Assembly (NCBI GenBank): GCA_019359315.1
Contig: JAHHHO010000004.1
Location: 62,001 to 126,000, forward strand
Length of the DNA: 64,000 nucleotides
Direction: 5' to 3'
Source: Myxacorys californica WJT36-NPBG1
GTDB lineage: Bacteria; Cyanobacteriota; Cyanobacteriia; Leptolyngbyales; Leptolyngbyaceae
The notes beneath the pieces are model-generated. The model saw nothing but the letters and a program-made list of their open reading frames with translations, was not told the origin of the DNA and did not search any database. Shown here in pieces: positions 34,381-38,180 of this stretch; positions within the stretch are counted from its first letter, which is position 1, and every line of letters starts with the position of its first letter. The position numbers and the translations under genes are program-made.

Positions 34381-34510
34381 AGGGATGGGCAAAACGTAGA
34401 ATGCGTTTTTTCAGAGTGCCCTGTGGTGTGTAGTGGATTTACAGCGATCGCGCGATTACTGCAAAGCAACTTCGATTGGGTTGCGGAAGTGTGCTTGTTG
34501 ATGGTGGCAA

Positions 34511-35086
34511 TCAACGATTGAGTTTATCGGTTTTCCAGCGTTTGGGATTGGTTTGAATGTATTGGCGGATGCGATCGAAGGCGGCGGGGTCTCGAATGAT
34601 GTGGTCGTGAAATCGGGGTTGCCATGCGAATTCAGGTAGGGTTTTACAGATTTCAAATTTGCACCGTCCTTTGTACCAACGAATGATTTTTGATATGGAA
34701 TCGTCGGACAACATTGGGTTGTGGTTGGCGGTTACGCCGCCGGAATGATGGGTATTGTGGTTTGTCGTTGTCGTCGTAGAGACGCGATTAATCGCGTCTC
34801 TACCGTTGTCGGGTAACCGATCGATGATCAAAATCCCATGGATATGGTTAGGCATGACGATGAATGCGTTTAATTGAACGTGGGGAAACCGATCGGGAAT
34901 TTTCCACCACAATTTTTGGGCAATTTCACCCGCGATCGACAAATTCATGATTCCATTCTGAATATTGCCAAAAAAATGCTGCCGATTCTGGGTGCAAATG
35001 GTGATGAAATATGCGCCATTTCCGGCGTAATCCCATCCAGGTTTGCGGGCTGATTCAATCCGGTATTTGTTTTTGTATAGGGTCAT
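34511..35086 (-). CDS. REP-associated tyrosine transposase (RAYT, Y1/HUH type)
   Basis: A 191-residue single-strand DNA transposase-like protein. The start at 35086 (MTLYKNKYRIESARKPGWDY) is preferred over one 9 codons upstream. Key residues: the HUH metal site in VMPNHIHGIL, and the catalytic tyrosine in IRQYIQTNPKRW. RAYTs act on REP palindromes rather than carry insertion-sequence ends. An unusual feature is a 28-bp perfect palindrome inside the gene, encoding the extra segment RDAINRVSTTTT. No terminal repeats flank the gene. Confidence 0.88.
   Translation of the reverse strand: MTLYKNKYRIESARKPGWDYAGNGAYFITICTQNRQHFFGNIQNGIMNLSIAGEIAQKLWWKIPDRFPHVQLNAFIVMPNHIHGILIIDRLPDNGRDAINRVSTTTTTNHNTHHSGGVTANHNPMLSDDSISKIIRWYKGRCKFEICKTLPEFAWQPRFHDHIIRDPAAFDRIRQYIQTNPKRWKTDKLNR
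34776..34803. repeat. 28-bp perfect palindrome (REP-like) inside the RAYT gene
   Basis: GTAGAGACGCGATT is followed immediately by its exact reverse complement. The half AATCGCGTCTCT recurs at 63690-63701 near the end of the window within a second imperfect copy. The sequence encodes the in-frame peptide DAINRVST of the transposase. Confidence 0.9.
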
Positions 35087-35201
35087 GGTTGTTTCCCGTT
35101 GGCAAATTACCAATGACCCTAAAATGCCCGCAAAAAATGATGCGATCGCACCGCATCAATCGACGATCGCATCGTTCAATTTAGACCAAATCCCACGATC
35201 T

Positions 35202-35453
35202 CTACCGTTGATCCTGTGTACGTTTTTCAATCTCTAATATGGGCAACAACAACGTCTCTTCAATTTCCTGCCGCACGTTGCGACTGACATAACAATCGCT
35301 GTTTAGACAATCAACTAGCAGCTTATTGGCATCGTAATACTGTTGCAAAAGGCCTTTTTGTTCTTTGCTAAATTGCCAGTCGTGCCCAATGTTGCGATGC
35401 TCGATCGTAGCTTTCCTGAGTTGTTCAGTCCAAGCTTGACCATTCGCTGTCCA
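35202..35453 (-). pseudogene. detached C-terminal tail of the NACHT protein
   Basis: In the same frame, directly after the amber codon that ends the NACHT gene, a further 83 codons run to TAG at 35202-35204 with coherent protein sequence: WTANGQAWTEQLRKATIEHR, NIGHDWQFSKEQKGLLQQYY, DANKLLVDCL, then QEIEETLLLPILEIEKR. The lack of any start codon near the junction and the continuous frame show that this was once part of the upstream gene. A single TGG-to-TAG change would explain the break. Confidence 0.75.
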
Positions 35454-37490
35454 CTATTGCTCGAAGGTTCTTCTATTCTGAGATTTCTCTAATAGTTGAT
35501 CTTTCAATCTTTGTAGCTTGCGTTTAAGTCCAGGATCACGAGTAAGATCTGGATTGAGGGCATTGAGGATGGGAGTATCATCGATATCGAAGTCGAGAGT
35601 GAGGGCAAGAACGAAATCAAGAAAGAGGTCGGAATTGACAGAAAAGGCAACGGTATCGAGATCGTCATTGACAACGATTTGATGTCCCTTAAAGATGAGA
35701 ATGGGGCCGAGGATGAAGTTGAAAGCGAGGGCAAGATAGAACACTCGAATTTCCGCTGATTTGTAAGTAGCCTCAACCGACTGCGACTTTTCCTGCACCC
35801 AAACCATGAGTTGCTGAAGCTTCTCATCTCCTGCCAAAATCTGTTTCATCTGATCCGTCTTAGCCTTCATTAACAGCAACAAATGATCAGATTTCGGCGT
35901 GATATTTGCGGTTAATAGAAAGACTTCACGCCATCGCTTCTCTGTCAGGTGTTCGACTAACCTTGCATAATCAGCTTCGTTAACAATCTGCTTTGCTGTG
36001 AAGTACTCTTGAAACGTTAAATGTGAGAACGAATAGATTCCTCTTGCCCGTTCGACTAATAGCCCATGCTGTGCCGCAATCGATTTCAAAGCCGCTTCAC
36101 TGTCGAGCTGTAAGGTTTTTGGATCAGTTCTGGCATCAGGCAAGTTGATAATGTAATTAGCAATGTGTTGTTCAACAGCTCTCTGTTTGAAAAAATAATC
36201 TTTCTGCTCAAAAGTTTTGAGGGCAAGCTGGCTCAGAAGATCCTCTTTACGATTAATCGATAGCTTTTCATAGAACTGATCGCGCTGAATTTCGCGGCTT
36301 GCATCCCACTTACTTAATAAAACTCGCAAGCCGCGCTCATAGAGTTCTGCCCGATTTCTCGGAAACTCTAGCGACTCCTCACACTCTAAACACAGCAATG
36401 TCAGCAATAGCGGGTTACTTGCCAGTTCTTTAATCGGTTTATTTTTGTCTAATTTTTCAATGAGCCGCTCTGCAAACTCTTCTCCTTTCTTTAGATCTTT
36501 GCATCGAAACCAATTGTTAATAAAGGTTGAAATCTGTTCATTATCGAAATCTGCCACTTCCACTTCGGTAAAGCGTTCAAAGACATATTCCTTGGCGACA
36601 ACGCGGCACGTGATCACAAAATGGTTGTTTGCATATTGATTTGAAAAGTCTCGAATTTCTCGCAACACTCGCCCTGTATCTTCTTCTCGGACTTCATCCA
36701 GTCCATCTAACAGGACAAACGCTCTACCCTGCTGGATCACGTCTTGAATTTGGCTTTTGGTTGCGTTGTTCGTAATCTTTTCTCGAATGTAATCTAAAAA
36801 ATCCGGTTGGTTTTTCGTTTCCGCGAAATCCTTGAGTGTGATGAAGAGGGGAACACGATCGCCTAAAAAATGCCCTTCAATACACTGCATCCCCAAATAC
36901 TTGAGAAACGTTGTCTTCCCTGCCCCTGGCTTCCCCAACACCATTAATTTATTGTGCCGTTTGACCGCTTCAATTCCGGCAATTCGCTCTTCTCTAACTC
37001 GACTCAATCCAAATCGATCGAACTCTTCTAAGTCTGCATTCTGCAACAGTTGAGCAAGTTCTCTGCGATCGCGAGCTGTAATCTTTTCCAAGATATTGAC
37101 ATTGGTATAGATGCCTTGCTCTCCGGTTAGCTTGATCGGTTGCGTCATGTCTAGCACTCGCATCGTACCGCAGCGCTCTTTAACTAAAGGTGTGGTTTGT
37201 TCACGGATGGCTTGAACTGTATCAGCGATCGCGTCTGATGTTACATCTTCGGCAATGTTGTCCTCTACTTCTCGCTGTGTAATTTCTTCCCAGTTCAAAT
37301 CCAGCGCAGTGCAAATCTCAATAAAGTTATTGCGATTAATGGGCTTTCCCGCAAAGAAGTTACCAATCGGTTGACGAGTCTTTAGATCAATTGCTTGGGC
37401 TAAGCCTTCTTGTGTCCAACCCTGACTGTTGTAAGCTTTGCGAGCTTTTTTGATTCCTTCTGCGGAAGCTTGTAGCGATCGACCTGCCAT
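35454..37490 (-). CDS. NACHT-domain STAND NTPase with N-terminal HTH, ended early by an amber codon
   Basis: This gene encodes 678 residues from ATG 37490 (MAGRSLQASAEGI) to TAG 35454-35456. The N-terminus is a helix-turn-helix-like domain (GWTQEGLAQAIDL, RQPIGNFFAGKPI). The NACHT ATPase has Walker A GKPGAGKTT at residues 186-194 and Walker B FVLLDGLDEV at 258-267, followed by helical regions. Proteins of this class act as nucleotide switches, and some bacterial NACHT proteins defend against phage. The frame continues for 83 coherent codons beyond the stop, so the present product is probably truncated. Confidence 0.85.
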   Translation of the reverse strand: MAGRSLQASAEGIKKARKAYNSQGWTQEGLAQAIDLKTRQPIGNFFAGKPINRNNFIEICTALDLNWEEITQREVEDNIAEDVTSDAIADTVQAIREQTTPLVKERCGTMRVLDMTQPIKLTGEQGIYTNVNILEKITARDRRELAQLLQNADLEEFDRFGLSRVREERIAGIEAVKRHNKLMVLGKPGAGKTTFLKYLGMQCIEGHFLGDRVPLFITLKDFAETKNQPDFLDYIREKITNNATKSQIQDVIQQGRAFVLLDGLDEVREEDTGRVLREIRDFSNQYANNHFVITCRVVAKEYVFERFTEVEVADFDNEQISTFINNWFRCKDLKKGEEFAERLIEKLDKNKPIKELASNPLLLTLLCLECEESLEFPRNRAELYERGLRVLLSKWDASREIQRDQFYEKLSINRKEDLLSQLALKTFEQKDYFFKQRAVEQHIANYIINLPDARTDPKTLQLDSEAALKSIAAQHGLLVERARGIYSFSHLTFQEYFTAKQIVNEADYARLVEHLTEKRWREVFLLTANITPKSDHLLLLMKAKTDQMKQILAGDEKLQQLMVWVQEKSQSVEATYKSAEIRVFYLALAFNFILGPILIFKGHQIVVNDDLDTVAFSVNSDLFLDFVLALTLDFDIDDTPILNALNPDLTRDPGLKRKLQRLKDQLLEKSQNRRTFEQ

Positions 37491-37635
37491 GACCATAACC
37501 GTAAAAAGCTTTGTTAGTCTTTTAACCGATTTCACGCAATTCATGCAAATCATGCACGAAGTAAGCAGTTAGGTGAGCCAGCTTTCACACATGAGCTTGA
37601 GAAATTGAGGATGTAGTAAATGGAGATACATCCTA

Positions 37636-37800
37636 ATGTCTAACGCAACCACTCAGACCCGTACTGAAATCCCTGTTGCAACCACACAACCGCAACCGAT
37701 GCAAGGCGACTCAACCGCAACGATCATCATTGCGATCGCCAGCCTCATTCAAACAACGCTGATTGCAACAGCAGTGCTAGTCAAAGCCACTAAACGATAA
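37636..37800 (+). CDS. possible small single-pass membrane protein, 54 residues
   Basis: A 54-residue ORF (begins MSNATTQTRTEIPVATTQ) ends in TAA at 37800. After a Thr/Gln-rich soluble N-terminus comes one hydrophobic helix at about residues 28-49 (TATIIIAIASLIQTTLIATA) and a basic tail KATKR, so the N-terminus probably faces out. GGAG lies about 10 bases before the ATG, slightly far. It is divergent from the NACHT gene across 145 bp and could share its control region. I know no family for it. Confidence 0.5.
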   Translation: MSNATTQTRTEIPVATTQPQPMQGDSTATIIIAIASLIQTTLIATAVLVKATKR

Positions 37801-37888
37801 CTTGAGCTTTAGGCATGATCGCTCCACCCACTCTGGAGAGCGGTCATTTTCTGAAGTTTCGCCACCAACCCCTAACTTTTGCTCTTCA

Positions 37889-38143
37889 ATGTTAAACATT
37901 CGTCGTTGAAGGTCTGAGCATCAAGCGTGAATGTTTAAGCTTCATCGCTGATGTTCAGAGGTTCAAGCGCGAAAGTCTAAGCTTCACCGTTGAAAGTCTG
38001 AACATCAAGCGTGAAGGTCTGAACATCAAGCGCGAATGTTTGAGGTTCATCGTTGAATGTTTAAGCTTCATCGTTGATGTTCAGAGGCTCAAGCGTGAAA
38101 GTCTAAGGTTCGTCGTTGAATGTTTGAGCTTCAACGACGAACC
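37889..38143. repeat. 21-bp degenerate tandem repeat array, eleven full units
   Basis: From 37906 to 38136 the sequence divides into eleven 21-bp units of the form TTGAATGTTTAAGCTTCATC plus one base, with variants such as GTGAAGGTCTGAACATCAAG. Units differ at several positions but keep the period exactly; a partial unit precedes them. The array ends in a perfect 13-bp inverted repeat, GGTTCGTCGTTGA (38107-38119) with its complement at 38131-38143. There are no unique spacers, so it is not CRISPR. Confidence 0.88.
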
Positions 38144-38180
38144 CCGCTCGTTCCTTCACCAACCTTTCATCTCAGCCAAC

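Follow-up and report, generated by a model that had tools for sequence, protein, structure and literature searches.

A protein-coding frame of Myxacorys californica WJT36-NPBG1 is interrupted by an in-frame TAG codon. We consider it likely (probability about 0.75) that this stop arose by a nonsense mutation, recent and probably inactivating, of an accessory helix-turn-helix (HTH)–NACHT–NCH2 gene. The gene lies on the minus strand of a 64,000-nucleotide stretch of DNA (contig C95, positions 62001 to 126000, in genome G000), hereafter referred to as the window. It encodes a cyanobacterial STAND receptor-like protein consisting of an HTH, a NACHT NTPase domain, a variable linker and a helical NCH2 domain. 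The features of the locus, in window coordinates, are as follows.

34444..38180, no strand: 3,737-bp segment missing in the congener G001, where the same flanks are 75 bp apart
34511..35113, minus strand: IS200-like or REP-associated tyrosine transposase-like gene adjoining the NACHT gene (both matches below curated cut-offs)
35202..35204, minus strand: terminal TAG of the read-through frame (translation)
35205..35453, minus strand: 83-codon tail of conserved, undecayed NCH2 sequence (translation, Pfam, tail profile)
35241..35528, minus strand: NCH2 domain (PF22727), residues 655 to 750, interrupted at residue 679 by the TAG (Pfam)
35454..35456, minus strand: in-frame TAG in place of residue 679, which is Trp in 92 of 106 distinct homologous tails (translation, alignment)
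35454..37490, minus strand: truncated NACHT open reading frame (ORF), 678 codons and the TAG (translation; start placed by the aligned Met of L073)
35535..35717, minus strand: linker, residues about 592 to 652, of low model confidence, with variable hexanucleotide repeats in many relatives
36504..36947, minus strand: NACHT NTPase domain, residues 182 to 329, with P-loop GKPGAGKT and Walker B LLDGLDEV (Pfam)
37284..37454, minus strand: N-terminal HTH, residues 13 to 69, below the Pfam cut-off and helical in the model

Translation of the minus strand across 35202–37490 begins with the ATG at 37490 and continues for 677 further codons to the TAG at 35454–35456, behind which 83 sense codons lead to the terminal TAG; these two are the sole stops in the frame. 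The 678-residue product ends in ...NRRTFEQ, and the frame downstream of the TAG resumes as WTANGQAWTEQLRKA.... The first-pass annotation had described this ...NRRTFEQ–TAG–83-codon arrangement without its strand, and its coordinates and residues are exact. The program-made ORF list starts the gene farther upstream, at the ATG at 37553 (699 amino acids); the Met of the homologue nearest in sequence, L073, is aligned at the ATG at 37490, and we therefore prefer the 678-codon form. The length of the tail alone would occur by chance with a probability of about 0.02, calculated as (61/64)^83. The Pfam NCH2 match spans the TAG with an E value of 7.6e-40, and the residues behind it are colinear with those of homologues, which suggests that the post-stop frame is more than chance. 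As the tail has no ATG among its 83 codons, reinitiation behind the TAG is unlikely.

The NACHT domain (PF05729) was matched with 53.0 bits against a cut-off of 26.7, and both nucleotide-binding motifs fall in conserved alignment columns, identifying the protein as a NACHT STAND NTPase. With the TAG read through, the NCH2 domain (NACHT C-terminal helical domain 2) is complete, matching profile positions 1–96 with 135.4 bits. The normally translated ORF has no complete NCH2 domain, and our self-built NCH2 profile matches it at positions 9–37 only, with 10.4 bits. Compared with intact homologues, the gene thus carries a disabling lesion of the kind expected in a pseudogene: the TAG interrupts NCH2, and the homology continues colinearly behind it. 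An AlphaFold2 model, built from 46 sequences with the TAG treated as Trp for folding only (pLDDT 77.7, pTM 0.69), places five helices in NCH2 (residues 653–665, 673–699, 709–729, 737–746 and 751–761), and the TAG comes six residues into the second of them. On this model, truncation would remove most of helix 2 together with the last three helices. In a Foldseek search of the PDB, the best matches by E value were the animal NLRs NLRC4, NOD2 and NLRP3 (1.0e-11 and weaker), with TM-scores by query length of only 0.33–0.39 among the best 20 rows. A sequence profile search of the PDB gave a weak match to NLRC4 over residues 174–388 (E = 6.7e-7).

The residue expected at the stop was examined in homologues. 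The protein, its stop masked as X, served as tblastn query against the first 143 loci, 117 of which cover the site; these are redundant, some places having been fetched twice, and 106 distinct tails remained after removal of the redundancy and the window copy. At the site of the stop, 92 of these tails have Trp, 14 have another residue and none has a stop, and Trp-Trp occupies the site and the next position in 82. The first-pass annotation had proposed a TGG-to-TAG change and had expected the tail to align with the C termini of homologues; the former agrees with these counts, and the latter was borne out by both Pfam (NCH2) and tblastn. When the window protein, its stop replaced by Trp, is aligned with 45 of the loci, column 679 is Trp in at least 90% of sequences. 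Ten invariant columns (W687, N700, I701, G702, H703, W705, Y718, N722, I743 and E744) sit behind the TAG, and the window copy therefore retains all of them.

Among 130 non-redundant ORFs, NCH2 is complete in 116, of which 113 end within 13 residues after the domain, in a sample that leans towards complete tails, as 80 genome-contig loci were chosen by peptide patterns that included one taken from the tail. An NCH2-less form is therefore no usual variant in this sample. The titles of those 80 loci name 79 cyanobacteria and one Parachlamydia metagenome-assembled genome (L136). The remaining 14 ORFs comprise the window gene, a remnant on contig C47 of the same genome and 12 others. Five of these 12 are rows of other architectures from the genome of the window (L009, L010, L012, L013 and L014, with L010 and L014 overlapping on one contig); four carry a frameshift or stops (L028, L046, L050 and L073); L061 has a frame that runs only to about residue 324, close to the end of a contig; and in L011 and L132 the stretch or contig runs out within the gene. 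None of the 13 ends at the site of the window stop, and the natural ending at FEQ that the first-pass annotation had named as evidence against a lesion is thus absent from the sample. For L103, which has a stop at residue 318, the ORF counted is the portion behind that stop. Altogether, at least six other copies of the family are broken, by frameshifts (L028 and L073) or stops (L046, L050, L103 and the C47 copy). In L073, from Cyanobacteria bacterium FACHB-63, which is 64% identical to the window protein over residues 1–589, the NCH2 tail lies in another frame.

The tail behind the TAG is undecayed. We scored it against a profile from 72 homologues of at least 45% identity, out of 102 having the region, with leave-one-out scoring of the homologues. 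The window tail scored 150.2, within the homologue range of 70.7–154.5 (median 140.3) and above 66 of the 72, and for NCH2 as a whole the window copy exceeded 65 of the 72 left-out homologues. When 2% of the bases of the tail were changed at random in simulation, the median score fell to 141.4, and with 5% it fell to 128.6. Furthermore, a regression on body identity showed the tail to be more conserved than predicted, with a mean residual of +0.09 for the window, and 92 of 96 sequences lower. Both of these tests may favour the window, because the alignments are anchored on its protein and the 72 homologues were picked by identity to it. Measured against sequence divergence, the lesion, if real, would thus appear recent. 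An undecayed tail is equally compatible with a recent lesion and with maintained readthrough.

That the stop is a sequencing or assembly error, the gene of the living strain being intact, is unlikely. The difference concerns a single codon in a frame that is otherwise intact and without decay, and the assembly (5.97 Mb) is a draft in 128 contigs, all of which would fit such an error; against this stand its completeness of 99.98 and contamination of 0.02, and the frequency of lesions in the family, which amounts to several per cent with the six or more other broken copies among the 130 ORFs, although some of these may be errors too. Base errors in assemblies are usually rarer than several per cent. 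We give somewhat less credence again to the 678-residue protein being a working product, perhaps with altered control now that most of NCH2 is gone. The HTH, the NACHT domain and the helical regions that follow it all precede the TAG, which would suit such a product, but the other ORFs lacking a complete NCH2 are different architectures, broken copies and cut fragments rather than proteins ending here. In addition, the best structural matches are NLRs such as the autoinhibited NLRC4, and removal of the C-terminal part of an NLR should lead to misregulation rather than to a useful product.

The translation machinery of the genome offers no sign of amber decoding. Release factor 1 is present (prfA, 514.5 bits), and no CUA anticodon was found among 62 Rfam tRNA matches, obtained from the 150 of 366 first-look candidates scored in the profile scan. 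ARAGORN named 60 of the 62 in the loci scanned, none of them CUA, and the two on contig C98 without an ARAGORN call read as GUG and GUU from the alignments by eye. The amber-decoding tRNA or loss of release factor 1 that programmed recoding would call for is thus absent from these searches. Contig C98 (13.4 kb) also holds, within about 4 kb (C98:2158-6148; L198, G000), an array of 30 tRNA genes called by ARAGORN and two Rfam matches; many of its tRNAs are second copies of anticodons present elsewhere in the genome. Such tRNA arrays are known in cyanobacteria.

We also surveyed interrupted genes by codon-usage score in 1,202,316 bases, about a fifth of the genome, judging same-frame pairs of coding segments by eye. 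The 1,007 coding-segment stops comprised 415 TAA, 345 TAG and 247 TGA. Of 54 same-frame pairs, 24 follow TAA, 18 TAG and 12 TGA, and most resemble ordinary neighbouring genes. Three look interrupted, two of them by TAG (the window gene and a histidine-kinase fragment on contig C127) and one by TGA (a transposase on C95), so that the window gene and the kinase fragment are the only clear cases among the 18 TAG pairs. A few pairs, for example C15:29489 (TAA), C103:9768 (TGA) and C123:16940 (TAG), are ambiguous by eye. With so few interrupted cases, no excess of TAG can be claimed. The histidine-kinase-like fragment (G000:C127:62501-63115; L156), with its in-frame TAG, has 45 matches in the genome. 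General amber readthrough is therefore unlikely, given the release factor, the tRNAs and the use of TAG as a normal stop with no coding-extension pattern in the fifth of the genome surveyed. Between the possibilities raised in the first-pass annotation, recent inactivation is favoured and readthrough of this general kind is disfavoured.

A second interrupted NCH2 gene occurs in the same genome. NCH2 was found in 215 of 388 genomes in a survey of the class, and among the 150 NCH2 matches listed, two have a stop inside the domain, the window gene and a copy on contig C47; both stops are TAG, both are in this genome and both are preceded by CAA. As the window was selected for its stop, only the C47 stop is surprising. 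The C47 copy (L045, G000:C47:12646-13632) is a 5′-truncated NACHT–NCH2 remnant reading LLQQ-stop-YEANRLLVDCLNSDCYV, with coherent sequence behind its TAG, and lies outside the 54 same-frame pairs described above. It has no match upstream of residue 406, and its TAG falls at about residue 717. Because the position differs and the 5′ part is missing, we rejected it as a second recoding site, and it is more simply explained as a decaying remnant.

These observations bear on two further explanations in which some full-length protein is made. A leaky TAG could yield a little of it and thereby keep the tail under selection, which would account for the undecayed tail and for the CAA-preceded pair of TAGs. 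We regard this as very unlikely: none of the 106 distinct homologous tails has a stop at the site, the C47 copy is a truncated remnant stopped elsewhere, release factor 1 is present and no CUA tRNA was found among the matches, TAG ends 345 of the 1,007 coding segments surveyed with no pattern of coding extensions, and the base after the TAG at 35454–35456 is U. A U after TAG makes an efficient termination context. The more elaborate proposal, which is the least probable of all those considered here, is that amber codons are tolerated in NCH2 genes, with low readthrough giving the full-length receptor and the TAG limiting the dose of a potentially lethal NACHT protein. The paired TAGs in one genome are its main support; if it were true, the undecayed tail and the pair among the 150 matches listed would not be coincidence. 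Under the nonsense-mutation reading, the pair and the TAG of the C127 fragment must be called coincidence, which counts against a chance lesion; we regard the two NCH2 stops as such, with that of C47 explained by free decay.

Among the closest known proteins, the NACHT–NCH2 NTPase (PF05729 and PF22727) of Nostoc sp. N6, encoded on plasmid NZ_CP026686.1, is 53% identical over 95% of the query, and that of Leptolyngbya sp. FACHB-36 (L064) is 59% identical over nearly the full length; the window copy differs from them in its TAG at residue 679. Curated defence models matched the window protein only in part (PDC-S60, 44.8 bits over residues 174–508; EruA, 44.7 bits against a cut-off of 1000), and neither PADLOC nor NCBIfam gave a full-length match to a model of a known anti-phage NACHT system. 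Unlike in the animal NLRs that head the Foldseek matches, no leucine-rich repeat was detected in the Pfam scan of the protein. A literature search on NCH2 with NACHT returned no paper whose title looks related to bacterial NCH2 proteins. Known bacterial NACHT proteins are described as having three parts, an effector at the N terminus, NACHT in the centre and a sensor at the C terminus (PMC12169576). The anti-phage proteins bNACHT25 and bNACHT32 (PMC12169576) share with the window protein the central NACHT module and a helical NCH domain at the C terminus; theirs is NCH1 with an N-terminal PD-(D/E)XK nuclease, whereas the window protein has NCH2 with an HTH. By analogy with such proteins, the window protein may have had a role in phage defence.

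We propose that a single recent nonsense mutation replaced a nearly invariant Trp of NCH2 helix 2 with the TAG; normal translation would then end at residue 678, and most of NCH2 would be lost. By analogy with STAND proteins, NCH2 would be the sensing or autoinhibitory end, and the tripartite layout of bacterial NACHT proteins likewise suggests that truncation removes most of the C-terminal sensing or control domain. The truncated product would then most likely be non-functional, and an autoactive one would probably be selected against. The gene may thus stand at the first step towards a pseudogene.

The gene is part of an accessory segment. Besides the NACHT gene, the 3,737-bp segment holds repeats and the REP-type transposase-like gene, and it is flanked by glycosyltransferase and 160-amino-acid protein genes on one side and by bilin reductase (PF05996) and kinase genes on the other. 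In G001, the single congener seen, the 75 bp between the flanks is unaligned sequence, and no NCH2 match was found in that genome at an E value of 1e-8. In four further relatives, L250 (G006), L255 (G013), L260 (G011) and L264 (G017), the bilin reductase gene lies within about 260 bp of the homologue of the 160-amino-acid gene, an arrangement that makes it more likely that the lineage of the window gained the segment than that G001 lost it. Of the 30 bilin-reductase loci fetched, the 29 other than that of the window had no close NACHT copy within flanks of up to 1.5 kb; at L258, a distant NACHT match (31% identity) lies about 1.1 kb from the bilin reductase gene. Elsewhere in the genome of the window, an intact close relative occupies C10:17950-20490 as an 869-codon frame with Trp at the site, and a diverged relative is found on C127. 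Plasmids carry relatives too, with matches in 114 records, in 26 of which a single place covers 80% or more of the query. Within the segment, a degenerate 21-bp tandem repeat (periods 21/42/63/84) occupies 37899–38133, between the NACHT and bilin reductase genes, and a possible 54-codon small-protein gene with a hydrophobic C-terminal half was noted by eye upstream of the NACHT gene (37636–37800, plus strand).

In many homologues (for example, L122, L143 and L137), the linker between the NACHT part and NCH2 derives from degenerate hexanucleotide repeats encoding alternating (Asp/Ala/Ser)-(Leu/Arg) dipeptides. Lag-6 identity averages 0.46 in the 98 linkers of at least 30 residues, compared with 0.26 in the gene body, and exceeds 0.45 in 42 of the 98; it is 0.41 in the window linker. 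Among pairs of sequences, which are not independent, linker identity is below that of NCH2 at every level of body identity: 0.69 versus 0.81 for pairs above 0.90 (n = 9), 0.30 versus 0.61 at 0.85–0.90 (n = 16), 0.46 versus 0.67 at 0.80–0.85 (n = 22) and 0.40 versus 0.58 at 0.75–0.80 (n = 56). Since a unit of six bases preserves the frame, slippage in these repeats could diversify the receptor.

The stop codon itself looks ordinary, a recent loss-of-function lesion in a known NACHT–NCH2 family, and the variable, repeat-encoded linker of that family is more unusual and may merit more attention. For annotation, the gene is a warning that a standard gene call conceals a broken NCH2 domain. With one stop, no other decay and a segment missing from the congener, it illustrates clearly how cyanobacteria may lose accessory immune-receptor-like genes.
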